45,954 nt of DNA, taken from assembly GCF_000342045.1 (NCBI RefSeq), contig NZ_AONQ01000038.1:1-45954 (forward strand), in the 5' to 3' direction. The notes under the pieces were generated by a model, which had not been told where the DNA came from, made no database searches, and was given only the letters and a program-made list of their open reading frames with translations. Within the stretch, counting starts at the first letter, position 1; every line of letters starts with the position of its first letter. The stretch is from Paramagnetospirillum caucaseum. Its GTDB lineage: Bacteria > Pseudomonadota > Alphaproteobacteria > Rhodospirillales > Magnetospirillaceae. Made by a program: the position numbers and the translations under genes. This document shows, in pieces, positions 3,044 to 30,441 of this stretch.

Positions 3044-4240
3044 TTAGGCATCGCCGACCTCGACAATGACCGACATCGCCGTATCGCCGGCCGCGCAGCC
3101 GGTGAACAGGCCGCGGCCGCCGCCGCGGATCGCCAGTTCCTCGATCAGTTCCATCACTCCGCGCAGGCCCATCGGCCCCTGCGGATGCCCGTAAATCAGC
3201 GAGCAGCCGTAATTGTTCATCCGGTCAAGCGGGAAGCCGGTTTCCTTGGCGAAATAGAGGTCGTTGACCGCAAAGGGATTGTGGGTCTTGACCGCATCGA
3301 TCTGGCCGATGGCCAGTCCGGCCTGTTCAAGAGCCCGGCGGGCGGCGGGAACCGGCGCCGCGGGCATATGGGAGGGTTCGACCCGCGCCAGGCCGAAACC
3401 GGCCAGGCGAATGCCGACCTTGCCCTTTGACAGCTCGCGCGCCTTTTCACGCGTGGTGACGAGCATCGCGGCGTTTCCGTCAGCGGGATGGGTCTGGGCG
3501 CCATAGGTGATGGTGCCGCCCTCGACCACCGGCCGGAGCTTGGCCAGGCCCTCGGGGGTCGAGCGGGTCAGCCCCTCGTCGCCGGACATCACCCCCGCCA
3601 CCTTGCCGAAGCGGGCATCCGGGACATCGAAGGGTAGGGTGATGTAGCGCCTTTGGAAGGCGTGATCCTCCGCCGTGGCCATGTCGTATTGAGTCTGGCG
3701 CATCAGCACCAGGTCATGCTGCTGGGCGGTGGTGAAGCCCCCCTTCCTCGCGATGTTCTCGCCGGTGACGACCATCGCCTGACCGGTGAACGGATCGCGG
3801 CCGAAATTGGCCAGCACCCAGTCCTCCGTCTCGCCGGTGCCCCCCATTCCCCGGGGATTGGGGTAATAGATGTGGGGGCCGTTGGAAAGACGGTCACAGC
3901 CCTGCACCAGCGCCACCGTCGCCATCCCGGCCGCGACCTCGAGGGCCGCCGTCTGCAGGCAGCGCACCGAGGTGGCGCAGGCCTGGCTGATGGTGGGGCC
4001 GCCGACGCCATCCGCGCCGATCATGCCGGTCAGCCAGGGCAGGCCGTAGAAGCAGGCGGTCTGCGGCACCGACAGGCCAAGCACGCCGAAATCGATGGCC
4101 TTGGGATCAAGGTTGCGGCGGGCCATTTCCGCCTTGGTGACATGCGCGGCGAACCTGATCGCGTGCAGATTGGCGAAGCTGCCCTGCCACTTCGCGAGGG
4201 GCGTGCTCCAGTACGCGCCATAGGGGATCCAGGCGCTCAT
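3044..4240 (-). CDS. Thiolase-family acyl-CoA acetyltransferase
   Basis: A 398-residue thiolase. The likely nucleophile is Cys88 in SQACATS. Further active-site positions are His320 in HNPFAVND (the place of NEAF in biosynthetic thiolases), His352 in YGHPQGPMG and Cys382 in TGCAAGDTA. The HNPF variant is typical of the degradative/SCP-x-like thiolase branch (family knowledge). ATG 4240 is chosen because a 20-codon leader with a good ribosome binding site ends in an ATGA overlap exactly there; a GTG at 4306 has poor spacing. Proposed role: thiolytic cleavage of 3-(2-aminophenyl)-3-oxopropionyl-CoA to 2-aminobenzoyl-CoA and acetyl-CoA, the last step of the inferred auxin pathway. It has its own operator-like promoter region. 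Confidence 0.85.
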   Translation of the reverse strand: MSAWIPYGAYWSTPLAKWQGSFANLHAIRFAAHVTKAEMARRNLDPKAIDFGVLGLSVPQTACFYGLPWLTGMIGADGVGGPTISQACATSVRCLQTAALEVAAGMATVALVQGCDRLSNGPHIYYPNPRGMGGTGETEDWVLANFGRDPFTGQAMVVTGENIARKGGFTTAQQHDLVLMRQTQYDMATAEDHAFQRRYITLPFDVPDARFGKVAGVMSGDEGLTRSTPEGLAKLRPVVEGGTITYGAQTHPADGNAAMLVTTREKARELSKGKVGIRLAGFGLARVEPSHMPAAPVPAARRALEQAGLAIGQIDAVKTHNPFAVNDLYFAKETGFPLDRMNNYGCSLIYGHPQGPMGLRGVMELIEELAIRGGGRGLFTGCAAGDTAMSVIVEVGDA

Positions 4241-4299
4241 CGCCCGCTCTTCACGGAGAGACCAACCCTGGCCAGCGTCGCGAAAATCAACCTCAACAT
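4237..4299 (-). CDS. 20-codon leader ORF coupled to the thiolase
   Basis: ATG 4299 follows an AGGGGG ribosome binding site by six bases. The frame encodes MLRLIFATLARVGLSVKSGR and stops with TGA inside ATGA, sharing the thiolase start codon. The peptide is hydrophobic and basic and has no recognised relatives. It may serve only for translational coupling. Confidence 0.45.
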   Translation of the reverse strand: MLRLIFATLARVGLSVKSGR

Positions 4300-4343
4300 G
4301 ACGCACCCCCTGTCACTTGCTTCGAGGCGGACCATAGCCCATT

Positions 4344-4399: not shown

Positions 4400-5728
4400 T
4401 CACATGCCGAGATAGGCGCGGCGCACCTGGTCGTCGCGCAGCAGGTCCGCGCCCTTGCCTTCCAGGGCGACATTGCCCGTTTCAAGGACATAGGCGTAAT
4501 CGGCGATCGCCAGTGCCGCCCGCGCATTCTGTTCGACCAGCAGAATGGTTATGCCGGCATCCCGCAGCAGGCGGATGTTGCGGAAGATTTCCGCGACGAC
4601 CAGGGGAGCCAGCCCCATGCTGGGCTCATCGAGCAAAAGCAGCTTGGGCTTTCCCATCAGCGCCCGGCCCAGCGCCAGCATCTGCTGCTGCCCGCCCGAC
4701 AACACGCCGGCCGGCTGGTCATGCCGCTCCCGCAGGACGGGGAACAGGGCATAGACCTCCTCAAGGCTGGTCCTGATCTCCGCCGCCGGGCGGAGATAGC
4801 CGCCCAGTCGCAGATTGTCCTCGATGCTCATGGGCTTGAAGACGTGGCGGCCTTCGGGAACCTGGCAGATACCGGCCCTGACCCGGTTTTTCGCCTCGTC
4901 GAAGGTGATCGGCTCTCCGTGCATGGAAATCGAGCCGCGCGACACCGGCTGAACCCCGGAGATGCAGCGCAGCAAGGTGGTCTTGCCGGCCCCGTTCGCC
5001 CCGACCAGCGCGACCAATTGCCCCGGCATGATCTGCATCGAGACGCCGTGCAGAACCTCGATCCTGCCATAGCCGCTGGACAGACCCACGACCGACAGCA
5101 TGGCCTCGGGATTGCCCGACATCTGCTTCGGGGCGAGCGGGACGGAATCCTCCCTCGCGCCGAGGCCGACCGGAGCCGGCAACAGCCGGGTGATCCGGGC
5201 GCGCAGCAAGGCCATCGCCTCCGCCGGATATTCGTGAGTCAACGGATCGGTGCGGGAGGCGAAGATGTCGTTGACCTGCAGCCAATCCTCATCGATCAGC
5301 ACCTCGCGGGCCAGCGGGAAGCAGAACTCCTCCTCCAGCCGAAGGTGGTTGTCCATGCGACGCCGAAACAGCGCGATCTCGTCCACCAACTCGGCAATAT
5401 TCTGCTCGGCCCCCCGGTCGGGCCTGACCGCCATCTGCCTCAGCCTTTCGGTCTGCTGATAGGCCCCCCGATGATGGAGCTCCAGTTCGGCGAGAACGTC
5501 TTGCCCGCGATCGGTGCGTTCCCGGATACGCACGAACAGGACATCGGATTCCCAGGCATCGTGATAGAGATCCCTGAACCCACTGAAGTAATCCGCGATC
5601 AGCTCGATGGTGTGGAAGGTGGTGTCGTCCGCCGTTCCATCGGCGAACTGGGCACCCAACGCCGAAAGAGCGCCACCGACCATCCGCATGGTGCGGTGTT
5701 CCGACAAAATAATGGCAAGCGCCTGCAT
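4400..5728 (-). CDS. livF: Hemerythrin domain-LivF fusion, ABC transporter ATPase
   Basis: A 442-residue fusion. Residues 1-180 are helical with two HHE hemerythrin-type repeats; candidate iron ligands are His11, His56, Glu60, His85/His86, His128 and Glu132. Residues 210-442 are a complete LivF-type ATPase: Walker A GANGAGKT (243-250), signature LSGGQQQM, Walker B LLLLDEP, then a switch His-loop position occupied in LLVEQNA as usual for LivF. Ordinary LivF is about 235 residues and starts where residue 210 lies here. The start at 5728 has GAGGAA seven bases upstream and lies four bases after livG. A weak internal start at residue 203 or 210 could also give free LivF. The hemerythrin half may bind a di-iron/oxygen centre and make uptake redox-responsive; that is inference. 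Confidence 0.9.
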   Translation of the reverse strand: MQALAIILSEHRTMRMVGGALSALGAQFADGTADDTTFHTIELIADYFSGFRDLYHDAWESDVLFVRIRERTDRGQDVLAELELHHRGAYQQTERLRQMAVRPDRGAEQNIAELVDEIALFRRRMDNHLRLEEEFCFPLAREVLIDEDWLQVNDIFASRTDPLTHEYPAEAMALLRARITRLLPAPVGLGAREDSVPLAPKQMSGNPEAMLSVVGLSSGYGRIEVLHGVSMQIMPGQLVALVGANGAGKTTLLRCISGVQPVSRGSISMHGEPITFDEAKNRVRAGICQVPEGRHVFKPMSIEDNLRLGGYLRPAAEIRTSLEEVYALFPVLRERHDQPAGVLSGGQQQMLALGRALMGKPKLLLLDEPSMGLAPLVVAEIFRNIRLLRDAGITILLVEQNARAALAIADYAYVLETGNVALEGKGADLLRDDQVRRAYLGM

Positions 5729-5732
5729 GGGC

Positions 5733-6497
5733 CTATTCCTCGTCTTCGTCCCCGCCCAGATAGGCGGCGATGACGTCTGGATTCTTTCTGATTTCCTCGG
5801 GAGTCCCCTCGGCGAGTTTCTGTCCGTAATTGAGCACGAGAATCCGGTGCGAGATGTTCATCACCAGCTTCATGTCATGTTCCACCACCACGACGGTGAT
5901 CCCCAACCGCACCAGTTCTCCCACCAACAGTGCCATATCATGCGTTTCGGTGTGGTTGAGGCCGGCGGCGGGTTCGTCGAGAAAAAGGAGCCTCGGCTCG
6001 GACGCAAGCGCGCGGGCCACTTCCAGCTTCTTCAACGCACCATAGGGCATGGCCGAGGCGTGAGCGTCGATATAGGCCTTGCAGCCGACCTGCGTCATGA
6101 GATCGACCGCTCGTTCCTTGCAGGCCCGATCACTGCGCACGATGCCGGGAAACCGGAACATGCCGGCGAACATCCCGGAATTGAGCCTCGAATGCGCGCC
6201 GACCATGACGTTCTCGATGGCGCTCAGGTTCTTGCACACCTGCAGGTTCTGGAACGTGCGGCTGATTCCCATCCGGGCCAGGCTGTGCGGTGGAATGCCG
6301 GTAATCTCGGCTCCCTCGAATTTGACGGATCCAGCCGTCGGCGTGTAGAGGCCCGAGATCAGGTTGAACAGTGTCGTTTTTCCCGCCCCGTTGGGGCCGA
6401 TCACCGAATAGACCGATCCGGCGGGAATATGGAAGCCGACGTCCTGGACGGCATGAATCCCCCCGAACGACTTGGACAGATGATCAACCGTCAGCAC
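5733..6497 (-). CDS. livG: Branched-chain-type ABC transporter ATPase LivG
   Basis: 254 residues, normal length. Walker A GPNGAGKTT, the LivG-specific SRTFQN segment in the Q-loop region, Walker B LLFLDEPAAG and switch VVEHDM are all present. The signature motif is degenerate (YGALKKLEVAR), which is common in LivG proteins. It overlaps the end of livM by seven bases and is followed after four bases by the hemerythrin-LivF gene. It powers uptake through LivH/LivM together with LivF. In this context the substrate is expected to be an aromatic acid such as indole-3-acetate rather than leucine (inference). Confidence 0.92.
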   Translation of the reverse strand: MLTVDHLSKSFGGIHAVQDVGFHIPAGSVYSVIGPNGAGKTTLFNLISGLYTPTAGSVKFEGAEITGIPPHSLARMGISRTFQNLQVCKNLSAIENVMVGAHSRLNSGMFAGMFRFPGIVRSDRACKERAVDLMTQVGCKAYIDAHASAMPYGALKKLEVARALASEPRLLFLDEPAAGLNHTETHDMALLVGELVRLGITVVVVEHDMKLVMNISHRILVLNYGQKLAEGTPEEIRKNPDVIAAYLGGDEDEE

Positions 6498-7486
6498 GTC
6501 GCACCTCGCTTCGGCCGCATGGCGGCCGCCAGGCTCGGCACCAGGCCCCGGGGCAGGAAAATCATGGTTGCCGCCAGAATCACCCCAAACGCCACCACGT
6601 CCCAGCCATCGTATCCGGCCAGGAATTGCGGCAGAATGCCGATGATCACGGCTCCGATCAGGGCACCGTAGATCGAGGCCATTCCCCCAAAGACAACGAT
6701 GATGACCAACTCGGTCGATTGCACGAAGTCGGCGATACCAGGATTGATGTATCCGAAATAATGGGCCCCCAGGCTGCCCAGGATCGACGAGACCGTTGCC
6801 GACAGAACGAAGACATCCATCTTACGGCGACGCACATCGACCCCCGCCACCGTCGCCGCGACTTCCGACCCGTGCAGCGCCTGAAGAGCGCGCCCGGCCG
6901 GGGAGTTGATCAAATTCTGGGTGATGACGACGGTCGCGAACAGCAATACGGCAAAAACCCAATACCACTGCCGCTCCCCCGCCAGGGAATAGCCCAAGAC
7001 CGAGAATCGCCCCACCGGCATTCCGTCCGGGCCGCCGGTCCATTGCGCCTCATTGGTCAGGACGATTGTGATGATCACTCCCAATCCCAGGGTCGCCATG
7101 GCGAGATAGTGGCCGCGCAGGCGAAGAATGACGCGCGCCACTGCCCAGGAAAGGAGTGCGGTGACCACGGCTGACAGGATCAAGCCACCGAGCGGGGGAA
7201 CATTGTAGCGGGCCGTCAGAATCGCCGATCCATAAGCCCCAAGACCAAAGAAGCCGGCATGGCCGAGACTGATCTGCCCGGTATACCCCATCAGGAGATT
7301 CAGCATGATGGCGTTCATGGCCAGGATGGCCACACGGTTCGCCACATCGACATAGAATGTATTTGGAAGGAAGGCTGGCAGGATTATCAGGACGGCAGCC
7401 AGTGCCGCGAGTCCCCTGAAACGGTTGACCACCTCTTCAGGAAGGGAGCCAGAGTCCACGCCATTCGCACCTGGAAGCTTTATCAT
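6491..7486 (-). CDS. livM: ABC transporter permease LivM
   Basis: 331 residues with about nine hydrophobic segments. Conserved LivM blocks include GYTGQISLGHAGFFGLGAY, the RLRGHYLAMATLG segment and GGMASIYGALIGA. The N-terminal 25 residues are a soluble extension before the first membrane segment. ATG 7486 lies three bases after the livH stop. It forms the inner-membrane channel with LivH. No damage is seen. Confidence 0.92.
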   Translation of the reverse strand: MIKLPGANGVDSGSLPEEVVNRFRGLAALAAVLIILPAFLPNTFYVDVANRVAILAMNAIMLNLLMGYTGQISLGHAGFFGLGAYGSAILTARYNVPPLGGLILSAVVTALLSWAVARVILRLRGHYLAMATLGLGVIITIVLTNEAQWTGGPDGMPVGRFSVLGYSLAGERQWYWVFAVLLFATVVITQNLINSPAGRALQALHGSEVAATVAGVDVRRRKMDVFVLSATVSSILGSLGAHYFGYINPGIADFVQSTELVIIVVFGGMASIYGALIGAVIIGILPQFLAGYDGWDVVAFGVILAATMIFLPRGLVPSLAAAMRPKRGATC

Positions 7487-7489
7487 GAC

Positions 7490-8365
7490 CTAGATCCGAT
7501 CCGTTGGCTTGGCACCAAGCAATCCCTGGGGACGCAGCACCATGACGATGAACACCATGACGAAGGGCACCGCGTCCTTGTACGCAGAAGAGACGTAACC
7601 GGCGGTCAACGCCTCGACCAACCCAAGGAGCAACCCTCCGAAGACAGCCCCGCTTCCGCTTCCCAACCCCCCGAGCGTGGCGGCGACAAACCCTTTGAGG
7701 CCAAGCATGATACCGGTGTCATAGGCGACGGTGGAGATCGGCGTGACCAGAATGCCGCCGAACGCGCCGATGAGCGCGGAGAGAATGAAGCTGAGTGTCA
7801 GGACACGGCGGACATCGATTCCCACCAACTGCGCCGCCAATCGGTCATAGGATGCCGCCAGCATCCCCTTGCCGAGTTGAGTGCGGCTGAAAAACAGCTT
7901 CAGCCCAACCACGATCAACGCGGAAACCGCCAGAACCCAAAGGCTTTGCGGCAGGATTGTCGCCCCCGCGATCTCGATCGGCTTGTCCGAGGAAAAATGC
8001 GGCAGGCCGTGATTGGCCTTGCCGAAGAATATCTCGGTCAACCCCCGCACGATCATCGACACCCCGATGGTGACGAGAATCAAGGTGGCAACCTCGGCGT
8101 CACGACATTGGCCAACAGCCAGCCGCTCCATCAGATATCCGATCAAGCCCGCGGCCATCACACCGACGATACAGGCGAGGGGCAGCGGGATGCCCGCACT
8201 CACAAGAACGGAGGCACACATGCCGCCGATCATGATGAATTCGCCTTGCGCGAAGTTAATCACGCCGCTGGCATTGAATATCATCGAGAAACCGAGCGCC
8301 GCCAGCGTGTATGTTGCGCCAAGCGTAATGCCTGATAAGATGAATTGAATAAATTCAGGCGACAT
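7490..8365 (-). CDS. livH: ABC transporter permease LivH
   Basis: 291 residues, the standard LivH length, with eight or so membrane segments. Conserved blocks: GATYTLAALGFSMIFNASG near the N-terminus, NFAQGEFIMIGG, and GGLGSGSGAVFGG near the C-terminus. It follows the substrate-binding protein gene by 76 bases. It pairs with LivM downstream. Confidence 0.92.
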   Translation of the reverse strand: MSPEFIQFILSGITLGATYTLAALGFSMIFNASGVINFAQGEFIMIGGMCASVLVSAGIPLPLACIVGVMAAGLIGYLMERLAVGQCRDAEVATLILVTIGVSMIVRGLTEIFFGKANHGLPHFSSDKPIEIAGATILPQSLWVLAVSALIVVGLKLFFSRTQLGKGMLAASYDRLAAQLVGIDVRRVLTLSFILSALIGAFGGILVTPISTVAYDTGIMLGLKGFVAATLGGLGSGSGAVFGGLLLGLVEALTAGYVSSAYKDAVPFVMVFIVMVLRPQGLLGAKPTDRI

Positions 8366-8441: not shown

Positions 8442-9593
8442 TTATTTTGCCAGCGTCCAGCCGCCATTCTTGATCTGGACCATTTTCAGACCAGACGAGT
8501 CGATGCCAAGATGATCCTGGGGCGACATGGTCACGATTCCGCTGGTGTCGGGGAAATCCTTGGTATTTTCCAGGGCATCCCGAACCTTGGCCTTGTCCGT
8601 CGAACCCGCCCGCGTGACGGCGTTCACCCAAAGCAGCCAGGCGTCACGGGCATAGGCGCCAAACGTGGACGGCGGAGTTTTGAAGCGCGCCTCGAAAGCC
8701 TTGGCATACTCCGCCGACAGTGCCTTCTGGGGATCGCTATCGGGAAGAACTTGGGCCACGATCACCGCCGGCGACGGCATACGTACCCCTTCCGACGCGG
8801 CACCGGTCAGGTTCAGGTATTCCTGGGAGGCCGACCCATGACCCTCATAGTGAGGCAGGGTCATTCCCAACTGCGCCATGCCCTTGGCAACGACGATGGG
8901 ACCCTGGCCGAAACTGGAGACGAACAGGGCCTGCACGGCCGGGTTATTCTTGATTTTCGCCAACTGGGCGGTGACGTCGGTATCTTTGACGTTGAATGTT
9001 TCGTCGGCGATGATGGAGACGCCGTACTTCCCGGCGACCGCCAAGGTCTCCTTGCGGCTTGACTGGCCGTAGCCGGTGGTGTCGGCGAGCAGGGCAATGG
9101 ACTTGTAGCCACGCCCGGCCATGTCCTGTAGGGCTCGTTCCGACGCCATGCGATCATCATGAGAGACCTTGAAGAGCCACTTCTTCACCGGATCGACGAT
9201 GACCCTGGCCCCCCCAAGGGAAATGAATGGAATCTCGGCTCGTTCCACCAGCGAGTACATGGCCATCGTCGCGCCGGTCGTGGTGCCTCCGATCAGCATG
9301 TCCACCTTTTCATCCTCAATCAGGCGCTTCACGAAGCCATTGGCCTTGCCGGGATCACTGCCATCATCGAACTGGATCAAGGCCACGCGACGCCCCAGCA
9401 ATCCGCCGGCCTTGTTGGTCTCATCAACCATCATCTGAAGGGTTTGCGCTTCCGGTTCCCCCAGCGGAGCGGCACCACCGGTCAGGGAAAGCACGGCCCC
9501 CACCTTGATTGGTTCCGCCGCAATGGCTTGATTCACGCCCGCGACCACCAAGGCGGCCAAGGCAACACCAAAGGCAATTGTTGATTTTCGCAT
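8442..9593 (-). CDS. Periplasmic substrate-binding protein, LivK/aromatic-acid type
   Basis: 383 residues with a Sec signal peptide (MRKSTIAF then a hydrophobic stretch ending AIAAEP, cleavage near residue 25). The mature part starts IKVGAVLSLTGGAAPLG, typical of type I periplasmic binding proteins (peripla_BP_6) that serve Liv transporters, many of which take aromatic acids. It captures the ligand in the periplasm for the LivHMGF complex encoded directly downstream. The 46-base gap before it, after the MoeA-like gene, and a CTCC/GGAG-rich leader suggest that it is read as part of the same transcript. Confidence 0.9.
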   Translation of the reverse strand: MRKSTIAFGVALAALVVAGVNQAIAAEPIKVGAVLSLTGGAAPLGEPEAQTLQMMVDETNKAGGLLGRRVALIQFDDGSDPGKANGFVKRLIEDEKVDMLIGGTTTGATMAMYSLVERAEIPFISLGGARVIVDPVKKWLFKVSHDDRMASERALQDMAGRGYKSIALLADTTGYGQSSRKETLAVAGKYGVSIIADETFNVKDTDVTAQLAKIKNNPAVQALFVSSFGQGPIVVAKGMAQLGMTLPHYEGHGSASQEYLNLTGAASEGVRMPSPAVIVAQVLPDSDPQKALSAEYAKAFEARFKTPPSTFGAYARDAWLLWVNAVTRAGSTDKAKVRDALENTKDFPDTSGIVTMSPQDHLGIDSSGLKMVQIKNGGWTLAK

Positions 9594-9640: not shown

Positions 9641-10684
9641 TCATCTAGATGATTGTTCTTGTTGTTGTTCTAATGTACTTGCAGTCAATGATGGGCATTG
9701 CTTGAGCAGACCGCCGACGCCCATGTCCATGATGTCGCTGGCCGTGACGGCGAGTCCGGCAAGCACCCGCCGCAGAACCAAATCCAGGCCGTTGAGGCTG
9801 GGGGACCGGGCGCAGCCGGGAAGGTCGATCACCGGCACCTGACCGACATGGCCCAAAAGCAGGAGGTTGCCGGGGTCCGCCGGCATGCCGAAATGGTCGA
9901 TGCCGCCACCCGCCCCTAGAATGGCGGCGGGCACGATATCGCGGCGATCAACGGTGGCCGAGGCACCGGAAATCAGCAGCAACGAGCACCCTTCGTCCAG
10001 GACCCGCCCGATCTCCACTGCCAGGGCCTCTGCATCGTGGTTACAGCGCCTCTCCGAAAGCCAAACACTGCCCAGCGCTTCAATGCGGCTCCGATTTGCG
10101 GCGGCGGCGCTCTGGAGAACACTTTCACGGGTTCCGGCAAGGGTGGTCTGGATCATCGCCACCTTATGCGGGATAAAGGGCCTCACCGAGATGGCAGGCT
10201 CCCCCGCCGAGGCAAAGTCCCGGCAAAGGTCTATCACTCGCCGCTCCACGGCGAACGGGATGATCTTGAGCGTCGCCACAACTTGGCCCGGTTCCACGAT
10301 CATCCACGGCTCGGCCGTCGCCACCGTTACGCCCTCATGGATCCGATTGAAGGCGCCGATCCGTTCGCGATTAATAATGAGCAGGCCATGGGCTTCCGCC
10401 AGCAAGTTACTGCGACCGGTCAGGGCCTCGCTGCGGCCGACATTGGCTCCGACCAGGACGTCGGCCACGGAATCGGCCGCCGCGTTCTCGTCAACGTCGC
10501 CGGCCTCAAGACGCGCACCGGTGATACGATGGATGTCCGCCGCAGTCAGCGCGGCGATATCGCCGGCACAGAGGGTGCGCCCCTTCCTTATCGACCGTCC
10601 ATTGGGGATCGATTCGGAGAGGTGAATCGAATAGGCGAGCACCACCCCCTCGGCCGCCTCGATCGGAAAGTCGCCAAAGATCAT
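9641..10684 (-). CDS. MoeA/MocA-like molybdopterin-binding protein without transferase domain
   Basis: 347 residues. Conserved segments (FPIEAAEGVVLAYSIHL, ALTGRSNLLAEAHGLL, ATLKIIPFAV, GASATVDRRDIVPAAI, GGGIDHFGMPADPGNLLLLG, GVGGLLK) match the N-terminal molybdopterin-binding half of an alphaproteobacterial protein that normally continues into a MobA/MocA-type nucleotidyltransferase. That second half is missing here. Such proteins load or mature the molybdenum cofactor of xanthine-dehydrogenase-family enzymes (family knowledge). Its presence fits the molybdenum hydroxylase at 17968-21706, so it is probably a dedicated cofactor insertase or nucleotide-donor partner. It ends with a Gln/Ser-rich tail. 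Confidence 0.8.
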   Translation of the reverse strand: MIFGDFPIEAAEGVVLAYSIHLSESIPNGRSIRKGRTLCAGDIAALTAADIHRITGARLEAGDVDENAAADSVADVLVGANVGRSEALTGRSNLLAEAHGLLIINRERIGAFNRIHEGVTVATAEPWMIVEPGQVVATLKIIPFAVERRVIDLCRDFASAGEPAISVRPFIPHKVAMIQTTLAGTRESVLQSAAAANRSRIEALGSVWLSERRCNHDAEALAVEIGRVLDEGCSLLLISGASATVDRRDIVPAAILGAGGGIDHFGMPADPGNLLLLGHVGQVPVIDLPGCARSPSLNGLDLVLRRVLAGLAVTASDIMDMGVGGLLKQCPSLTASTLEQQQEQSSR

Positions 10685-15151: not shown

Positions 15152-15165
15152 GTTTTCTCCAATTC

Positions 15166-17695: not shown

Positions 17696-17947
17696 TCAGC
17701 CCCCCCCAATCGGGGGAGCCAGACAGACTTCGTCCTCGTCACACACAGGATAGTCGCGATCAGCGTAGTGGAGATTGACCGAGACTATGACGATGTCGAT
17801 GTACTCTGACGCCAGGATGAATCGTTCGCCCTTGGTCGGAAGCCAGTCGAGCAGCATCCCCACATTTTTGACATCTTCCGGCAAGACGATGTCTTCAGAG
17901 TCGCAGCCCATGCAGTCTCGAATCCAGGCAAAATACATAAGTTTCAT
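17696..17947 (-). CDS. moaD: MoaD-like molybdopterin synthase sulfur-carrier protein
   Basis: 83 residues, beta-grasp size. It starts MKLMYFAWIRD, the usual MoaD first strand, and ends PPIGGG; MoaD proteins end in Gly-Gly, which is adenylated and thiocarboxylated by MoeB. The extra final Gly is unusual. It lies 20 bases after the large subunit of the molybdenum hydroxylase, so it is probably a dedicated copy that boosts molybdopterin supply for that enzyme. No moaE accompanies it in the window, so it must use the housekeeping one. Confidence 0.8.
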   Translation of the reverse strand: MKLMYFAWIRDCMGCDSEDIVLPEDVKNVGMLLDWLPTKGERFILASEYIDIVIVSVNLHYADRDYPVCDEDEVCLAPPIGGG

Positions 17948-20316: not shown

Positions 20317-20367
20317 GGCAGGGCTCCACTCGAGAATATGCAATTCCAGTTTGGGGATGACGCGCGC

Positions 20368-21827: not shown

Positions 21828-23435
21828 TCAGAACCTGATCGGTTCGCGGTAACGGCCGTAAACATTCACCAGCGTCTTGGTGATTTCACCGACCGTGGCG
21901 TAGGTCTTGACCGCCTCCATGATCGCGGGCATGACGTTGACCTCGGCGCGGGCATCGGCCTCGATGCGGGCCAGGGCCGCATCCACCTGCGCCTTGTCCC
22001 GACGGGCCCGCACCGCGTTCAGGGAGTCGATCTGGCGGCGGGCATCACTCTCATCGTAGGGATGGAATTCGACCTGCTTTTCTTCCTCCTCGACCCGGTA
22101 GCAATTGAAGCCGACCTTGCGGAATTCGCCGGATTCGAGCTTCTTGGCCATGTTGTAGGCCTGCGAGGATACCTGCGCCTGAATCCACCCCTCGGCCACG
22201 AGCTTCACGATGCCGCCACGGGCATCGACGTCGTCCATCGCCTCCACCATTTTCTGGCGCATCTGATTGGTGAGGGTTTCGACGTAATAGGAACCGGCCA
22301 GAGGATCGACCGTATCGGCCAAGCCCATCTCCTCGATCAGGATCTGCATCGTCCGCAAGGAGATGCGGGCCGAATACTCGGTCGGGATAGTGTAGGCCTC
22401 GTCATACGAGCACAGCGCCATGGTCTGGGTGCCCGACAGGGCGCTGATCAGCGCGTAATAGGCGGTGCGAACGATGTTGTTTTCCGGCTGCTCGAAGGTC
22501 AGGCCGCCGCCGCCGCCGCCGGCGATCATGCGCAGGCCCATGGAGGATGGCTTCTTGGGGTGGTAGCGCTCCTTCACGATCTTGGCCCACAAGCCGCGGG
22601 CGGCGCGGAACTTGGCCACCTGCTCGAACAGATTGCCGAAGATGTTGAAGTTGAACGACAGCCGGCCGGCGAACTCGTCGATGTCCAGCCCCCTGGCCAG
22701 GGCGCTGTCGATATAGGCGCAGGCGATGTTGAAGGCGTAGGCCATCTCCTGCACCGGATCGGCACCCGAATCCCGGATGTGATAGCCGCAAACACTGACC
22801 GGCGAGTATTTCGGGGCGTGTTTGGCGCAATACTCGACGGTGTCGGCCACCAGCTTGATGGAGGCATCGACCGGGAAGATCCAGGTGCCGCGCCCGATGA
22901 ATTCCTTGAGAATGTCGTTCTGGGCGGTGCCGCGCAGCTTGGAAATGTCGTAGCCGCGCTTTTCGGCCATCGCCAGATACATGGCGATCATCACGGTGGC
23001 CGACCCATTGATGGTCAGTGACACGGTGATCTTTTCCAGGTCGATACCGGCGAAGGCGATCTCCATGTCGGCCAAGGTATCGACCGACATGCCGACACGC
23101 CCGACCTCGCCCTCGGCGGCCGGATCATCCGAATCGAGACCGATCTGGCTGGGCAGGTCAAAGGCGACATTCAGGCCGGTCTGGCCATTGTCGATCAGGA
23201 ACTTGAAACGATTATTGGTATCCTGCGGATTGCCGAAACCGGCGTATTGCCGCATGGTCCACGGCTGCTTGCGGTACATCGTGGGATGAATTCCGCGGGT
23301 GAACGGATACTCGCCCGGCAAACCGATCATCTCGGTTCCACCCGAGGCGATGACGTCGTCCTGGGTATAGAGCGGCTTGATCTCGATGCCAGACTCGTTA
23401 ATGACCCGGCGCAGGCTAGGCTTTTCAGCGGTCAT
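21828..23435 (-). CDS. Adenosylcobalamin-dependent acyl-CoA mutase, large (substrate) subunit
   Basis: 535 residues: the TIM-barrel substrate half of a methylmalonyl-CoA-mutase-type enzyme without a B12 domain. Landmarks: PWTMRQYAGFG with Tyr64 (Tyr89 of Propionibacterium mutase), LRGTAQNDILKEF, Lys194 at the place of Arg207, and His219 in VCGYHIRDSG (His244). Keeping Tyr64 separates it from isobutyryl- and 2-hydroxyisobutyryl-CoA mutases, which have Phe or Ile there. A positive residue at 194 suits a substrate with a free carboxylate. Proposed reaction: (2-aminophenyl)succinyl-CoA to (2-aminobenzyl)malonyl-CoA. It overlaps the small-subunit gene by ATGA. Confidence 0.9.
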   Translation of the reverse strand: MTAEKPSLRRVINESGIEIKPLYTQDDVIASGGTEMIGLPGEYPFTRGIHPTMYRKQPWTMRQYAGFGNPQDTNNRFKFLIDNGQTGLNVAFDLPSQIGLDSDDPAAEGEVGRVGMSVDTLADMEIAFAGIDLEKITVSLTINGSATVMIAMYLAMAEKRGYDISKLRGTAQNDILKEFIGRGTWIFPVDASIKLVADTVEYCAKHAPKYSPVSVCGYHIRDSGADPVQEMAYAFNIACAYIDSALARGLDIDEFAGRLSFNFNIFGNLFEQVAKFRAARGLWAKIVKERYHPKKPSSMGLRMIAGGGGGGLTFEQPENNIVRTAYYALISALSGTQTMALCSYDEAYTIPTEYSARISLRTMQILIEEMGLADTVDPLAGSYYVETLTNQMRQKMVEAMDDVDARGGIVKLVAEGWIQAQVSSQAYNMAKKLESGEFRKVGFNCYRVEEEEKQVEFHPYDESDARRQIDSLNAVRARRDKAQVDAALARIEADARAEVNVMPAIMEAVKTYATVGEITKTLVNVYGRYREPIRF

Positions 23436-23833
23436 CGCACATTCTCCCGGATGAAGCTGGCGATATCGGCGAACTTAGCGCCGGTCGGGAAGATGCCGTG
23501 CAGGCCGATCTCGCGTAACACGGCGTGATCCGGGGCGGGCAGGTTGCCGCCGATAATCCACAGTTTGTCCTTGAGGCCGTTATCCTTCATCAGAACGGCA
23601 AGCTTGCGGCAGAACGGCAGGTGCGAGCCCGCCATGCTGGACAGGCCGATCACATCGACCCCTTCCTCGACGGCGGCGGCGCAGACCATCTCGGGGGTCT
23701 GGCGCAGGCCGGTGTAGATGACTTCGAAACCGGCATCCACCAGGGCGCGGACGACCACCTTGGCACCATGATCGTGGCCATCGAGGCCGGGCTTTGCGAT
23801 AAGAACACGGATCTTGCGGTCGGATTGGGTCAT
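23432..23833 (-). CDS. Acyl-CoA mutase small (B12-binding) subunit
   Basis: 133 residues. The cobalamin motif DGHDHG (Asp18, His20 as lower ligand, Gly23), GLSSMAGSH and IIGGNLPAPD are intact. It is the separate B12 module that pairs with the large subunit next to it, as in 2-hydroxyisobutyryl-CoA mutase and in the iaa-type mutase. It overlaps the acyl-CoA dehydrogenase stop and the large-subunit start, both by ATGA, so three genes are translationally coupled. Confidence 0.93.
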   Translation of the reverse strand: MTQSDRKIRVLIAKPGLDGHDHGAKVVVRALVDAGFEVIYTGLRQTPEMVCAAAVEEGVDVIGLSSMAGSHLPFCRKLAVLMKDNGLKDKLWIIGGNLPAPDHAVLREIGLHGIFPTGAKFADIASFIRENVR

Positions 23834-25008: not shown

Positions 25009-26706
25009 CTATGTCCGGGCAAGGCCATCGCTCCCCTCCAATCCGTAGATGTCGCGCGCCGCTTCCGGGCTGATCATGCCGTCGCGGACCTCGCGGGCCA
25101 GAAGGGCACGGTCGCGCTTGCGCGGGTCGCCATAGCCGCCGCCGCCGCCGGCAAATTGCTGATAGATCGTCCCCTTCGGGACGCCGACGATCAGGTCCTT
25201 GTTGCGGGGCACGACATTGCTGCCATCGGGATAGGTCAGGGTGATGGAATTCAGCGTTCCCTGACCGCCACCGAACAACCCGAATGCCGGCTCGAAATCG
25301 CCATCGCCGAAGGTCACCACCTGGGTATCGTCCGAGCCGATGCGGTAGACCGTCTCGACCCCGATGCCACCGCGCCACTGGCCGGCTCCGGCCGAGTCGC
25401 GGATATATTCATGCTTCAGCAGGAAATGGGGGGTCTGCTGCTCGAACATCTCGTAGTCCTGATCCATCAGCCCCCCCGAAGCGTCGATCATGCCGATGTG
25501 ATCATATCCATCGGTTCCGTTCATCGCCCCGGACCCGCCCTTCTGCGCCATGAAGCCGATATCGACATAGCGTTCGTTCTTGTCGGGATCGATGCCGGTG
25601 GTAAGGGCGCACAGCAGGTGGTTCCAACCTGCCGTGACACGGTCGGGGATCACCGGCGCCAGGGCGCGAACAATGGCGTCCGCGTTCGGCGGGCAGAGGT
25701 GATTGCCGAACGTCGTCGCCTTGGGATAGCTGGCGTTCAGGATCGTTCCCTCGGGGATCACGATCTCGATGGGCTGGATCATGCCCTCGTTGTGGGGCAT
25801 GTCGGGATTGACCATCTGGAGCAGGGTCAGCACCGTCGCCGAGGCAGACGATGTGAAAGTGCCATTGACGAAGCCGTCGGTCTGCGGATCGGTTTCGGAA
25901 TAATCGAACCGGATGGAGCGGTCCTTCACCTCGATCTTCACGCGGATCGTGTATTGCGACCCCAGATTATGGCCATCGTAAAAGACCTTGCCCTCACCAT
26001 AATAGGTGCCGTTCGGGATGGTGGCGATCTCGGCCTCCATCATCTTCCGCGTGGCATCGAACAGGGCAAGCTTGTGCGCCTCGAAACTCTCGACGCCGTA
26101 TTTGTCGAGCAGGTCGAGCATCCGCCTTTCACCCACCGTGGCGGCGCCCATCTGGGCGCGCAGGTCGTGCTGGACCATTTCAAAACGGATGTTGGCGAAG
26201 ATCAGGTCCCAGACATCCTTGCGCAACTTGCCCTTTTCCCAGACCTTGACCGGCGGGATCCGCAAGGCTTCCTGCCACACCTCCTTGGCGGCGGGGTTAT
26301 AGCCGCCGGCCACGGCGCCGCCGATATCGGCCTGGTGCCCCTTGACCGCGGTCCAGGCAACCAGCTTGCCTTCGAAGAACACGGGCTTGTAGACGGCGAC
26401 GTCGTTGTTCTGGTTGCCCATGCTGAAGACGTCATTATGGAAAATGACATCGCCGGGATGAATATCATCCCCGAAATACTGAAGAATGTATTTGCACACC
26501 GGCGCCAGCGAGAAGGCAAGAATCGGCAGGTTCTCCGTCTGCTCCAGCATATTGCCTTTTGCATCGTAGAGACCGGTGACGAAGTCCTTGGCCTCGCACA
26601 GAATGGGCGAGCGTGCGCTCTTCTGCACGGACAGGCTCATTTCATCCGTGATGGACTTGAAGGTCCGTGAATACACGGAAAGCAGGATCGGATCGATTTT
26701 GGTCAT
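25009..26706 (-). CDS. Hydantoinase B/oxoprolinase-family subunit (HyuB)
   Basis: 565 residues, the normal HyuB size. Typical segments are the N-terminal TFKSITDEMSLSVQKSARSP, ENLPILAFSL, HPGDVIFHND and GGGYGDPRKRD near the C-terminus. Its ATG shares one base with the HyuA stop (TGATG). With HyuA it forms an ATP-dependent enzyme. Family members either hydrolyse cyclic amides (hydantoin, 5-oxoproline) or carboxylate ketones. Next to a molybdenum hydroxylase, ring opening of the 2-oxoindole lactam to an aminophenylsuccinate is the best fit. Confidence 0.9.
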   Translation of the reverse strand: MTKIDPILLSVYSRTFKSITDEMSLSVQKSARSPILCEAKDFVTGLYDAKGNMLEQTENLPILAFSLAPVCKYILQYFGDDIHPGDVIFHNDVFSMGNQNNDVAVYKPVFFEGKLVAWTAVKGHQADIGGAVAGGYNPAAKEVWQEALRIPPVKVWEKGKLRKDVWDLIFANIRFEMVQHDLRAQMGAATVGERRMLDLLDKYGVESFEAHKLALFDATRKMMEAEIATIPNGTYYGEGKVFYDGHNLGSQYTIRVKIEVKDRSIRFDYSETDPQTDGFVNGTFTSSASATVLTLLQMVNPDMPHNEGMIQPIEIVIPEGTILNASYPKATTFGNHLCPPNADAIVRALAPVIPDRVTAGWNHLLCALTTGIDPDKNERYVDIGFMAQKGGSGAMNGTDGYDHIGMIDASGGLMDQDYEMFEQQTPHFLLKHEYIRDSAGAGQWRGGIGVETVYRIGSDDTQVVTFGDGDFEPAFGLFGGGQGTLNSITLTYPDGSNVVPRNKDLIVGVPKGTIYQQFAGGGGGYGDPRKRDRALLAREVRDGMISPEAARDIYGLEGSDGLART

Positions 26707-28820
26707 CAGTGTGTCCCCCGCAGAATCGAAGTGACGAGATCCTCGCGCCCCTTGCGATAGATGGCGAAAGAGCCGTTCTGGTCGCAAACGCAGTCGTAAT
26801 TGGCGCTGACGAAGATCGCCGTGGTCACCTCTTCGATCATCGCCGGACCGACCACGTGGTTGCCGTGGCGCATCTGGTGACCGTCATAGACGGGCACGCT
26901 GCGGAAGGCGTTGTCCTCGGGAACGTAGATGTTGCGCTCCCCCTTCCGGGCATGCTCCGCATCGGCGCCGGCATAGGGTTCCGACTGATATTCGGGCTTG
27001 TCGGTCAGGCCGACCACCTGCACCCGGACGTTGATGACCTCGACCGGCGAGTCCTGCTCTTCCAGCGAATAGCCGTAGAGGCGGTTGTGCTCGGCATGGA
27101 AGGCGCGCGCCAGGATCTTCACGTCTCCGCGCTCGACGATATCGGCATCGACCACGAACGAAACCTCGTGGTACTGCTTGAAATAGCGGCAATCGAACTT
27201 GATGAAGGTCTGGCGCCTCGACTTGGCGATCCGTTCCTCGTCGAGAAGAGCGTGGCCCTCGTTCACCATGCCCTCGATCAGGCCGCGCAGGCGGGGCCAA
27301 TCGATGGACGCCAGCGGTGAGACGAAGGTGCGCACGAGATCGTGCTTCAGATCGCTCATCAGCATGCCGTATGCGCAGAGAATCGAGGACTCGCGCGGGA
27401 CGATCTGGAACGGGATATCGAGTTCGTTGCAGATAAGGCAGGAATGGATGGGGCCGGCACCGCCCGCCACGATCATCGGGAACTCGCGCGGGTCGAAACC
27501 ACGCTTGATGGTGACCTCCCGCACGCCCTGGGCCATGTTGTTGCAGATCACCCGGTACATGCCGGCGGCGGCAACCTCGAGCGACATTCCAAGCGGCGTG
27601 GCGACATGGGTCTCGATGGCCCGCCGGGCGGCGTCGAGATCAAGCTTCATCCGCCCGCCGGCAAAATAATCCGGATTGAGATAGCCCAGCACCAGATTGG
27701 CATCGGTGGAGGTCGGGCGCTCGCCGCCGCGAGCGTAGCAGGCCGGACCGGGGGCCGCTCCGGCGCTGGCCGGTCCCATGCGCAGGAGTCCGCCCTCGTC
27801 GATCCAGCCGATCGAACCGCCGCCGGCACCGATGGTATGGATCCCCAGCATCGGCAGGGCGATGCGGTGACGGGCGATCTCGCCCTCGTTCACCATGATC
27901 GGGGTATCCACCGCCAGCGAGGCCTCGAAGCTGGTGCCCCCCATGTCGACGGTGATGGCCTTGTTGTGACCGTGGGCACGGGCGAAGATCAGCCCGGCCC
28001 CCGGCCCCGCCGCCGGGCCCGAAAGCAGGGTAAGAGCGGATTTCTGGCGCGCCACCTGCGGTGCCATCACGCCGCCGTTGGACTGCATGATCAACAGCAG
28101 GCCCTTGAATCCGATTTCGTTCAGCCGGCTCAGCAATTGGTCGAGGTAGTGGCTGAGCTTCGGTCCCACATAGGAATTCAGGGCGGTGGTGCTGATCCGG
28201 TCATAGAAGCGGATCGACGGCAGCAGGTCGGTCGATACGGTCAGATAGACCTCGGGCAGTTCACGCCGGATGATTTCCGCCGCCTGGCGCTCATGTTCGG
28301 GGTTGGCAAACGCATTCATGAAGCAGATTGCCACCGCCTCCACCCGCTCCTTCCGGAACAATTCGGTCGCGGCCTTGATTCCGGCGACGTCGAGGCTCTC
28401 CACCTCCCTGCCATCGCGATCCACGCGACCGCGCACGGCGGCCCGAAGGTGACGGGGCGCCAGCGGCGGAACATTGGTATAGCGGTTGTCGTAGCGTTCC
28501 TCGCGGATGCCGCGGCGCATTTCCAGCGCGTCGCGCAGCCCGTCGGTGGTGACCAGCGCCGTGCGCGCGCCGGTGCTCGTCAGCGTCGCATTGGTCGTGA
28601 CCGTGGTGCCGTGGACGATCGTATCGATCGAGGCGGCCAGGTCTTGAACCGACAGCGCCGGATTCATGCTCGCCGCGATTTCGGTCAATCCGTCGACGAC
28701 CGCGATGGACGGATCCTGGGGCGTCGACAGCACCTTGACGATTCGAGGAGCCTCGCCATCCTTGGCGACCAGGAAATCGGTGAAGGTTCCACCGACGTCG
28801 ATACCAATTTTCAGCGCCAT
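26706..28820 (-). CDS. Hydantoinase A/oxoprolinase-family ATP-binding subunit (HyuA)
   Basis: 704 residues. The ASKHA-fold ATP site is seen in GIDVGGTFTDFLV (residues 5-17), the TTVTTNATL segment and VDMGGTSFEASL. ATG 28820 has GGAG six bases upstream and lies 13 bases after the ligase stop; a longer frame would overlap the ligase. It activates the amide with ATP for opening by HyuB. Acetone and acetophenone carboxylases have related subunits, but no third or fourth carboxylase-type subunit is present here. Confidence 0.9.
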   Translation of the reverse strand: MALKIGIDVGGTFTDFLVAKDGEAPRIVKVLSTPQDPSIAVVDGLTEIAASMNPALSVQDLAASIDTIVHGTTVTTNATLTSTGARTALVTTDGLRDALEMRRGIREERYDNRYTNVPPLAPRHLRAAVRGRVDRDGREVESLDVAGIKAATELFRKERVEAVAICFMNAFANPEHERQAAEIIRRELPEVYLTVSTDLLPSIRFYDRISTTALNSYVGPKLSHYLDQLLSRLNEIGFKGLLLIMQSNGGVMAPQVARQKSALTLLSGPAAGPGAGLIFARAHGHNKAITVDMGGTSFEASLAVDTPIMVNEGEIARHRIALPMLGIHTIGAGGGSIGWIDEGGLLRMGPASAGAAPGPACYARGGERPTSTDANLVLGYLNPDYFAGGRMKLDLDAARRAIETHVATPLGMSLEVAAAGMYRVICNNMAQGVREVTIKRGFDPREFPMIVAGGAGPIHSCLICNELDIPFQIVPRESSILCAYGMLMSDLKHDLVRTFVSPLASIDWPRLRGLIEGMVNEGHALLDEERIAKSRRQTFIKFDCRYFKQYHEVSFVVDADIVERGDVKILARAFHAEHNRLYGYSLEEQDSPVEVINVRVQVVGLTDKPEYQSEPYAGADAEHARKGERNIYVPEDNAFRSVPVYDGHQMRHGNHVVGPAMIEEVTTAIFVSANYDCVCDQNGSFAIYRKGREDLVTSILRGTH

Positions 28821-28833
28821 GTCTTGCTCCGCC

Positions 28834-30441
28834 TTAACGTGTTGTTGCTTGTGTCTTGGATGCGGCGCCATGCGGAGACAAGGCTGCCTCCCCTTCATCG
28901 GCCGCAACCATCTTGCGGATTTCGCCCTTGAGAAGTTTCCCCGTGCCGCTGCGCGGCAGCCTATCGACGAATACCACCACCTTCGGCAGCTTGTAGCTGG
29001 CCGCCCGGCCTTCGAATAAGGCGAGGATTTCTTCGCCCGTAATCCGGCTGCCGGGTTGGCGAACCACCACGGCAATCGCCCGCTCGCCCCAATGCGGATC
29101 GGCCCGCCCGACCACCGCGGCTTCGCTGATGTCGGCACATTCATAAAGAATCGACTCAAGGGCGGCCGGATAGATGTTTTCGCCACCTGAAATAATCAGA
29201 TCCTTCTTGCGGTCATCGACGAACATGTTGCCGCTCTCGTCGAAATGACCGATATCGCCGCTATGGAACCAACCATCACGCAGGACTTCCGCCGAGGTTT
29301 GCGGATCGCCCCAGTAGCCGGCCATGACATTCTCGCCGCGAACCAGAATCTCGCCGCGCTCCCCGACCGGAACATCGCGTCCGATGTCATCGACGATACG
29401 GACATCGCAATGGATCGCCGGCCTGCCCGTTGAGGTGGGGAAGAGCCGCGCGTTGGCCGGCTGGCTGAAAACGGCGATCGGCCCTGTCTCGGTGCTGCCG
29501 TAGACCTGAATGAGATCAAGTCCTCGATCCTGTAGCGTTTCCGTCAGGGAACCGGGCACCAGGGTCGAGCCCGTCACCGCCAGTCGAATCGAGGACAAGT
29601 CCGCCGTCTTCCAGCGGGGATGTGCGATGAGCGCGTGCCACTGCGTGGGCACCAGTTGGATCAGCGTCGTTTTCTCTGCTTCGACCGTGTCGAAGAATGC
29701 ACTGACGTCGAACCGTGGATGCAACGTGACCGTCGCACCGGCGTGAAAAGCCGGCACGGTCTGAATGCAGAGTCCCCCGACATGGAACAGCGGCGAGCAG
29801 GTCAGTATCCTGTCCGTGCTGCGCAGGTCATGCATGTGGGCGCTGTTGACGGCGTTCCAGAACATGGCGCCCTGAGTCAGGACCGCCCCTTTCGGCTTGC
29901 CGGTGGTGCCTGAGGTGTAGCAGATCAGAACCGGCGAATCGTAGCCCCCGCACCGTGGCTCGGCGGCGCCCCCATGCCGAGTCACCAACTCGGTCAAGGA
30001 CGCCCACCCCACTGTCGAAGCATCCGCGCAACTGACCAGCCGCACCCCCGGGGCATGGCCGCGCACGGCCTCCGCGACAGCATGAAATGCGGGTTCCGCG
30101 ACCACCGCCACCGGTCTGGAATCGGCGACAATGACCGACAGTTCCGACTCGGTCAGCCGCCAATTGAGCGGGACCAGCATGGCGCCGAGCCGGGCGCATG
30201 CGAAAAGCAATTCCAGCATCCTCGGCGAATTGAGGCCGAGAAACGCGACGCGATCACCCCGCCCGACACCAAGGTCGATGCGCAGCACGCCAGCCATTCG
30301 GTTAACGCGATCAGCCAAGTCCGCGTATGTGATGATCTCGTCGCCATAACGGATCGCCGGCTTTTCGGGAAGATGGCGCGCCCAACCGGAAACCCAGTCG
30401 GACAGATCCCGCCCCCCCGTATCTGTGCGCCAATCGGCCAT
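28834..30441 (-). CDS. Acyl-CoA ligase (AMP-forming), candidate indoleacetate-CoA ligase
   Basis: 535 residues. Adenylation motifs are YTSGTTGKPKG, the aromatic YGSTET segment, HSGDIG and the C-terminal Lys in SGTGKLLKGEI. ATG 30441 is preferred over TTG 30477 because GGAGG lies seven bases upstream. It opens the long leftward unit, 110 bases after an operator-like site. In the Aromatoleum iaa cluster one ligase activates indole-3-acetate; this gene is the natural counterpart. Sequence alone does not tell it from other arylacetate or fatty-acid ligases. Confidence 0.85.
   Translation of the reverse strand: MADWRTDTGGRDLSDWVSGWARHLPEKPAIRYGDEIITYADLADRVNRMAGVLRIDLGVGRGDRVAFLGLNSPRMLELLFACARLGAMLVPLNWRLTESELSVIVADSRPVAVVAEPAFHAVAEAVRGHAPGVRLVSCADASTVGWASLTELVTRHGGAAEPRCGGYDSPVLICYTSGTTGKPKGAVLTQGAMFWNAVNSAHMHDLRSTDRILTCSPLFHVGGLCIQTVPAFHAGATVTLHPRFDVSAFFDTVEAEKTTLIQLVPTQWHALIAHPRWKTADLSSIRLAVTGSTLVPGSLTETLQDRGLDLIQVYGSTETGPIAVFSQPANARLFPTSTGRPAIHCDVRIVDDIGRDVPVGERGEILVRGENVMAGYWGDPQTSAEVLRDGWFHSGDIGHFDESGNMFVDDRKKDLIISGGENIYPAALESILYECADISEAAVVGRADPHWGERAIAVVVRQPGSRITGEEILALFEGRAASYKLPKVVVFVDRLPRSGTGKLLKGEIRKMVAADEGEAALSPHGAASKTQATTR

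Follow-up and report, generated by a model that had tools for sequence, protein, structure and literature searches.

The 45,954-nucleotide contig NZ_AONQ01000038.1 of Paramagnetospirillum caucaseum (contig C38, analysed whole and here called the window; coordinates refer to it unless another contig is named) very probably encodes an oxygen-independent route from indole-3-acetate to 2-aminobenzoyl-CoA, of the type known as the iaa pathway. The genes are intact open frames on the minus strand, from position 30441 down to 3044, and they appear to form a mosaic, in which the molybdenum (Mo) hydroxylase genes and a linked moaD have been swapped in as a cassette.

We searched a class-level set of 385 genomes and built a comparison set of 88 sequences, for which the best 80 of 357 IaaF relatives were kept from a scan of named genomes. 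This sample is skewed towards close relatives of the window; archaeal and sulfate-reducer clusters and Aromatoleum aromaticum are not among the 80, and A. evansii KB740 (loci L045 and L061) was used in place of A. aromaticum for all Aromatoleum comparisons. Removal of matches with less than 80% query coverage or more than one stop left 65 rows for the Mo large subunit, 66 for the CoA-transferase, 78 for the mutase large subunit and 88 for IaaF. By their Mo large subunit, loci were sorted into type I (44 loci), an intermediate type IIa (7 loci, 62-74% identical to the window) and type IIb (at least 80% identical to the window). The same genome holds a second full iaa cluster on contig C29 (locus L012).

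Gene content and order of the cluster

The genes stand in the following order, from the ligase at one end to the thiolase at the other, with a regulator on the opposite strand beyond it.

28834 to 30441, minus strand: acyl-CoA ligase, IaaB-like, proposed indoleacetate-CoA ligase; matches AMP-ligase families, none listed over its cut-off; 52% identical to the C29 copy, 53% to A. evansii
26706 to 28826, minus strand: HyuA, hydantoinase A-type, proposed ATP-dependent oxindole (lactam) hydrolase; PF01968; nearest NCBIfam model caprolactamase alpha (below cut-off); 70% to A. evansii
25009 to 26706, minus strand: HyuB, hydantoinase B-type subunit; PF02538; 80% to A. evansii, 83% to C29
23830 to 24969, minus strand: IaaF, orthologue of decarboxylating benzylmalonyl-CoA dehydrogenase; GGG for YEG; in the tree with Rhodospirillaceae iaa loci
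23432 to 23833, minus strand: mutase small subunit, B12-binding; TIGR00640 over cut-off
21828 to 23435, minus strand: mutase large subunit, proposed (2-aminophenyl)succinyl-CoA type; TIGR00641 over cut-off; Tyr/Arg
20840 to 21706, minus strand: Mo hydroxylase FAD subunit, first gene of cassette IIb; PF00941; 82% to L047 (a Zoogloeaceae metagenome-assembled genome, MAG), 53% to A. evansii
20368 to 20859, minus strand: Mo hydroxylase 2x[2Fe-2S] subunit, cassette IIb; PF01799/PF00111; 88% to L047, 61% to A. evansii
17968 to 20343, minus strand: Mo hydroxylase large subunit, cassette IIb, probable ATG at 20316; nearest structure 4-hydroxybenzoyl-CoA reductase; 88% to L047, 55% to A. evansii
17696 to 17947, minus strand: moaD, molybdopterin synthase small subunit ending in GG; PF02597 over cut-off, TIGR01682 below cut-off
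16353 to 17549, minus strand: class III CoA-transferase 1, IaaL-like; PF02515; 66-68% to Rhodospirillaceae iaa copies
15166 to 16356, minus strand: class III CoA-transferase 2, 63% identical to the first
14324 to 15169, minus strand: short-chain dehydrogenase/reductase (SDR), proposed 3-hydroxyacyl-CoA dehydrogenase; PF13561
12757 to 14211, minus strand: OYE1, FMN oxidoreductase of a family found beside 2-aminobenzoate-CoA ligase; PF00724; 71% to OYE2
11806 to 12729, minus strand: MeaB-type GTPase, chaperone for the mutase; PF03308
11180 to 11629, minus strand: MaoC half 1; PF13452
10756 to 11187, minus strand: MaoC half 2; PF01575
9641 to 10684, minus strand: stand-alone N-terminal half of a Mo-cofactor maturation protein (MoeA-like); one scanned homologue is fused to an NTP transferase
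8442 to 9593, minus strand: substrate-binding protein; PF13458; 50-51% to those of the second cluster and of Magnetospirillum (L026)
5733 to 8365, minus strand: LivH, LivM and LivG, permeases and ATPase of a Liv-type ATP-binding cassette (ABC) transporter, named by reading and position, not by family library
4400 to 5728, minus strand: LivF ATPase with an N-terminal hemerythrin domain; PF01814 and PF00005
3044 to 4306, minus strand: thiolase, IaaA-like, probable ATG at 4240; PF02803/PF00108; 66% to A. evansii
1778 to 2854, plus strand: TetR regulator that continues in frame, at its C-terminus, into a transposase fragment (DUF772); PF00440, PF17932, PF05598; 59% over 190 amino acids (aa) to the regulator of the second cluster

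An initial annotation had listed these enzymes, apart from OYE1 and the hemerythrin domain of LivF, on one strand and read them as an iaa pathway. The list is borne out by intact frames with the expected family matches, and the pathway reading is supported by collinearity with A. evansii, the GGG motif of IaaF, the Tyr and Arg of the mutase and hydantoinase subunits that lie nearer to lactam hydrolases. From the ligase to the CoA-transferase, moaD and the second CoA-transferase are the sole departures from the gene order of A. evansii KB740, which is known to degrade indoleacetate anaerobically, and we judge this agreement to be far beyond chance. Identities to L045 were 70% for HyuA, 80% for HyuB, 78% for IaaF, 72% for MutB and 77% for MutA, and 61%, 53% and 66% for CoA-transferase 1, the ligase and the thiolase. 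With the iaa cluster of A. evansii KB740 and A. aromaticum EbN1 (PMC9613470, PMC8360864) the window shares, as measured on A. evansii only, the collinear core, the binding protein, the thiolase and the GGG motif; it alone has the type IIb Mo hydroxylase with moaD, two CoA-transferases, the MaoC pair with the SDR, its own MeaB, an OYE inside the operon, the thiolase at the far end and a TetR regulator.

IaaF is the most telling single gene. IaaF enzymes are reported to have GGG in place of the YEG of most acyl-CoA dehydrogenases, which marks the benzylmalonyl-CoA dehydrogenase subclass. They make up a separate branch whose genes lie in iaa operons and which includes a Rhodopseudomonas palustris member (PMC8360864). 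The GGG motif was present in all 88 IaaF rows, that of the window included. At E<=1e-80, IaaF was found in 7 of the 385 class genomes, namely its own (second copy, 81%) and six others at 65-69%. Plasmids gave 425 records at E<=1e-60, all below 60% identity and the twenty listed at 39-42%, so that the iaa group (65-81%) is separated by a gap from the plasmid matches listed (at most 42%); the IaaF tree itself was built without outgroup dehydrogenases. This tree places the window together with C29, Magnetospirillum and Phaeospirillum (support 99/87). The description of the cluster as alphaproteobacterial-type thus holds for the IaaF tree, the MaoC pair and the TetR regulator, and fails for the Mo hydroxylase module, which groups with betaproteobacteria. 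The MaoC pair was seen in 10 of 88 loci (the window, C29, five named alphaproteobacteria and three loci of unstated class).

Some loci in the comparison set depart from this pattern. L015, L041 and L087 encode IaaF and both mutase subunits with HyuA/HyuB matches of only 29-37%, and L093 is similar but ends early; no Mo subunits were found within the stretch examined in L015 and L087. L015, L041 and L087 perhaps represent a related pathway for another aromatic acid. In L082, a Burkholderiales MAG iaa locus, a second HyuA/HyuB pair (49/57% to the window) lies behind the CoA-transferase.

The hydantoinase-type subunits and the mutase

The best family matches of both hydantoinase-type subunits are caprolactamase models. 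HyuA scored 693 bits against caprolactamase alpha and 328 against acetophenone carboxylase gamma, and HyuB 411 against the caprolactamase subunit and 122 against acetophenone carboxylase, none of these being over the model cut-off. Among solved structures, HyuA is nearest to 5-oxoprolinase (490 bits, compared with 310 for acetophenone carboxylase gamma). This proximity to lactam hydrolases fits the opening of an oxindole ring, and we rule out acetophenone carboxylase, which is not the best family match of either subunit.

The solved structure nearest to the mutase is 2-hydroxyisobutyryl-CoA mutase. That identity is ruled out by the residues in the window, a Tyr and an Arg as in methylmalonyl-CoA mutase, where 2-hydroxyisobutyryl-CoA mutase has Ile and Gln; Tyr and Arg were found in 78/78 rows. 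We take these positions to be tied to the binding of dicarboxylyl-CoA substrates. Moreover, a glycine-rich loop, AAGGGGGL or close variants, stands where methylmalonyl-CoA mutase has bulkier residues and would leave room for an aminobenzyl group. The initial annotation had named an outcome that would count against its own reading: no iaa relatives, with acetophenone carboxylase as the best match of HyuAB or 2-hydroxyisobutyryl-CoA mutase as that of the mutase. This is not what we observed, since A. evansii relatives stand at 70-80%.

A Mo hydroxylase cassette of another type

The tree of the Mo large subunit (65 rows, quick method) splits into two deep clades. The window groups with 13 betaproteobacterial rows (Shimodaira-Hasegawa-like approximate likelihood ratio support of 100), and the C29 copy groups with Phaeospirillum and Magnetospirillum, in a clade that also holds Aromatoleum. 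Forcing the window subunit together with C29, Magnetospirillum and Phaeospirillum was rejected in an approximately unbiased (AU) test (p-AU 2.6e-59). Identities agree with this split. Compared with L047, the window has Mo subunits 82, 88 and 88% identical, other iaa genes at 63-80% and the ligase at 48%; compared with Phaeospirillum, the corresponding figures are 51, 60 and 56%, 63-84% and 53%. In the 14 other type IIb loci (L097 included), identity to the window is 76-83, 81-88 and 84-88% for the three Mo subunits; the window's own subunits are 51-61% identical to those of Aromatoleum and of the second cluster of the genome. The betaproteobacterial type IIb clusters, such as L047 and L094 (Ramlibacter lithotrophicus), have the same cassette with moaD behind the large subunit, the latter being 84-88% identical; outside the cassette, L047 (the only locus of this type for which all genes were compared) resembles the window no more clearly than other iaa clusters do. 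In a sample of 398 genomes of the phylum, two had a match to the Mo hydroxylase at E<=1e-220 (the window's own and G551), both of which carry iaa clusters. A plasmid-borne cassette was looked for in PLSDB, where the Mo large subunit had no match at E<=1e-150.

The types differ at 78 alignment positions, with at least 97% agreement in the 44 type I rows and full agreement in the 14 type IIb rows. A glutamate near the C-terminus, which we take to be catalytic, is kept in both large subunits of the genome (GISE in the window, GVGE in C29). The solved structure nearest to the window large subunit is 4-hydroxybenzoyl-CoA reductase (1rm6), in the known case a reductive dehydroxylase; against the NCBIfam equivalog for that enzyme the subunit scored 569 bits, far below the cut-off of 995. 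Taken together, the trees and identities indicate that the cluster is a mosaic, a feature missed in the initial annotation, and that the Mo genes and moaD form a cassette standing where Aromatoleum-type clusters carry another hydroxylase.

The annotation of moaD as an added cofactor gene proved to be real (17696 to 17947, PF02597 over cut-off). Using tblastn on the 88 sequences, we found moaD at most 65 bases behind the Mo large subunit in 14/14 loci, the window counted, in which that subunit is at least 80% identical to the window; the MoaD proteins of the 13 other, betaproteobacterial loci are 65-76% identical to that of the window. It was found behind the large subunit in 0/51 other loci (44 type I, 7 IIa), where three further short matches were spurious, and tblastn gave no moaD match in L097, whose large subunit is below the coverage limit. 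Another moaD lies on contig C66 beside a moaE-like gene (named by reading), and the moaD of the cassette is therefore additional.

The second proposed cofactor gene is the MoeA-like frame at 9641 to 10684. It had no Pfam or NCBIfam match at E<=0.001, and its assignment as half of a Mo-cofactor maturation protein comes from one fused homologue: the homologue scanned (L145) ends in a MocA-type cytidylyltransferase domain, which is missing from the window copy. Homologues occur in 177/385 genomes at E<=1e-20, mostly, among the rows listed, in open frames of about 540-670 aa.

In-place exchange in betaproteobacterial operons

We compared 18 hand-chosen pairs of loci, eight of which set a type IIb locus against a type I locus of betaproteobacterial type. 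In all eight, the core from HyuA to MutA was 74-97% identical and the Mo subunits 49-63%. The four clearest pairs, two of which have L035 in common, were L074/L055 (HyuA to MutA 91-96%, Mo 49/63/55%), L063/L035 (89-94%, 49/60/54%), L040/L035 (89-97%, 49/58/54%) and L047/L058 (88-94%, 50/62/55%). In contrast, same-type controls gave Mo identities of 70/74/84% with a core of 83-90% (L055/L035, both type I) and of 79/85/87% with a core of 80-90% (L074/L063, both type IIb).

Nucleotide profiles of three pairs stood at 78-96% before dropping to 57-77% around the MutA/MoM border, and came back to 79-92% at the CoA-transferase, whereas two same-type control pairs stayed at 86% or more across the Mo stretch. 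In two of the three profiled pairs, identity dropped again towards or just past the 3' end of the CoA-transferase, and the pairs are therefore not alike throughout the downstream part. On the IaaF tree, type IIb requires at least 11 changes (15 of 74 labelled rows), little below the 12-15 seen in 50 label shuffles, and a constraint placing type IIb in one clade was rejected (p 1.2e-68, 14 rows, without L074). With weak branches in the IaaF tree, the figure of 11 may be an overestimate; the sister-pair comparison is independent of it. These pairs indicate that the same hydroxylase exchange has happened repeatedly in betaproteobacterial iaa operons.

CoA-transferases and transporter

The two CoA-transferases both carry DLKAGDEVY, whose aspartate we take to be the nucleophile. 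IaaL is reported to perform inter- and intramolecular CoA transfer (PMC11659651), and the two copies may divide this work between them. In the CaiB tree neither copy falls in a starred group, and we therefore do not claim that the second one arrived with the Mo cassette. We also considered that the MaoC pair and the SDR replace a fused hydratase/dehydrogenase of the C29 type; at E<=1e-30 the sole match to this fusion in the 88 sequences was its own contig, and we make no claim of such a replacement.

The proposed addition of a transporter was confirmed by family match for the binding protein and the LivF-type ATPase, and LivG, LivM and LivH were recognized by reading. The whole 442-aa hemerythrin-LivF fusion was matched in no other of the 385 genomes at E<=1e-90, a threshold that would miss weaker fusions. 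Its hemerythrin domain possibly links uptake by the putative auxin importer to oxygen or NO.

Proposed pathway and alternative readings

From orthology, the steps would be as follows. Indole-3-acetate would be taken up and activated with CoA, and the Mo hydroxylase would hydroxylate the indole ring at C2. HyuAB would then open the oxindole lactam at the expense of ATP, and the CaiB-type enzymes would move CoA within (2-aminophenyl)succinyl-CoA. The B12 mutase, with MeaB as chaperone, would rearrange this to (2-aminobenzyl)malonyl-CoA, which IaaF would decarboxylate oxidatively; hydration by the MaoC pair, oxidation by the SDR and thiolysis would yield 2-aminobenzoyl-CoA and acetyl-CoA. The type IIb cassette would probably catalyse the same ring hydroxylation, with extra capacity for its own cofactor, and the adjoining plus-strand operon would activate and process 2-aminobenzoate.

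Several observations weigh against assigning this pathway to the window cluster. Its Mo hydroxylase, in the same operon position, lies outside the Aromatoleum clade and is not of the orthologous type. The ligase is 48-53% identical to all ligases compared, and its substrate may therefore differ. The tandem CoA-transferase pair was found in one of the 66 loci holding the gene, that of the window. Moreover, C29 is closer than the window to A. evansii in HyuA, HyuB, MutA and the CoA-transferase, and most of all in the Mo subunits (60/64/73%, compared with 53/61/55% for the window); in IaaF, MutB, the ligase and the thiolase the window leads by 1-3 points. One could suppose that the C29 cluster takes indoleacetate and the window cluster a related indolic or aryl acid, as two full clusters in one genome, ligases only 52% identical, a Mo hydroxylase of different type and two divergent CoA-transferases would suggest. 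We consider this unlikely, given that window and C29 have the same motifs and share 75-83% identity in HyuA, HyuB, IaaF and the mutase large subunit. In addition, A. evansii KB740 likewise has two clusters, both with type I Mo subunits, and a number of type IIb loci reach about 90% identity to type I loci outside the Mo genes.

If the window cluster were decaying, as a spare copy of that on C29, the transposase remnants at both of its ends and the long branches of both CoA-transferases would fit, but the catabolic frames are intact, the motif residues are kept and the extra genes OYE1, MeaB and moaD are open too, which makes decay improbable. Hardly credible at all is a cluster that degrades a ketone or other aromatic through an acetophenone carboxylase-type HyuAB: both subunits do match acetophenone carboxylase, but the caprolactamase models give about twice the score for HyuA and over three times for HyuB, the two subunits are 70/80% identical to the A. 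evansii iaa locus, and the IaaF and mutase motifs fit the indoleacetate route.

End product, neighbouring operon and second cluster

Next to the cluster lies a plus-strand operon.

30928 to 31440, plus strand: regulator of the 2-aminobenzoate operon, labelled MarR by reading; 38.8% over 147 aa to the protein at 51307-51819 of C29
31443 to 32903, plus strand: OYE2; PF00724; 71% to OYE1
32983 to 37479, plus strand: second Liv/urea-type ABC transporter, by family matches
39343 to 40989, plus strand: proposed 2-aminobenzoate-CoA ligase; nearest structure anthranilate-CoA ligase 4wv3; 64% to the C29 copy
41020 to 41421, plus strand: RidA-family protein; PF01042; TIGR00004 below cut-off

OYE homologues were found in 19/385 class genomes, its own included, and in the seven neighbourhoods examined among the 18 other genomes, homologues of the 2-aminobenzoate-CoA ligase and of the C29 MarR stood in the same run in every case; that of G122 also had a 70% homologue of a 756-aa enzyme of C29. 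The presence of the OYE family beside 2-aminobenzoate-CoA ligase and the proximity of the ligase to anthranilate-CoA ligase support 2-aminobenzoyl-CoA as the end product, as the initial annotation had argued from the neighbouring operon. Inside this operon, a chemoreceptor (37482-39299) has its signalling domain at the N-terminus and sCache_2 at the C-terminus, which is an unusual order.

The C29 cluster and that of Phaeospirillum sp. GS7 (L042) are 94-97% identical from ligase to CoA-transferase, a closeness that suggests a host among the Rhodospirillaceae. They share with the window the MaoC pair, thiolase, SDR, TetR and the whole core, and differ from it in a type I Mo hydroxylase, a single CoA-transferase and no moaD found. 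Beside the C29 cluster lies the 756-aa enzyme, over the cut-off of NF006101 (by name a salicylyl-CoA 5-hydroxylase/oxidoreductase), which from its context we take to be a 2-aminobenzoyl-CoA monooxygenase/reductase, together with a second 2-aminobenzoate-CoA ligase, a MarR, a paralogue of benzoyl-CoA reductase subunit B and a RidA-like gene. This B subunit and the RidA-like gene adjoin each other at 18041-19752 of C29, near the ligase. Of class I benzoyl-CoA reductase, contigs C5 and C24 each encode subunits A, C and D, and subunit B is encoded on C5 and C29. The second set is split between contigs, and our guess is that C29 continues into C24; this set is a candidate for a dedicated 2-aminobenzoyl-CoA reductase with an enamine/imine deaminase. 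Given the reductase sets and the monooxygenase/reductase, anaerobic and aerobic lower routes therefore both appear to be encoded. We infer that the cluster is used anaerobically, which the two class I sets would fit.

Significance

The pathway and its presence in an alphaproteobacterium, Rhodopseudomonas palustris, are already in print, as far as the available part of that source goes (PMC8360864). We found no mention of a Mo cassette exchange with linked moaD, of CoA-transferases in tandem or of the OYE insertion in the titles and abstract openings searched, a literature outside which most subscription journals lie. What is new here, on the evidence of gene content and sequence, is the ring-hydroxylase step as a swappable module with linked moaD, in a genome holding both types. 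For this step an enzyme family has been proposed and, to our knowledge, the enzyme has not been purified. We tentatively suggest, as a possibility that we would not yet call probable, that the iaa operon is a standard socket for two interchangeable non-orthologous hydroxylase cassettes, of which IIb brings MoaD so that cofactor supply travels along. Exchange would then alter the capability of the operon (other auxins or oxindoles, electron acceptor, oxygen range), and genomes like this one would keep one of each. A single genome with both types offers a natural comparison of what the two hydroxylases do differently, and oxygen-free removal of auxin by bacteria could affect plant signalling in waterlogged soils and sediments.

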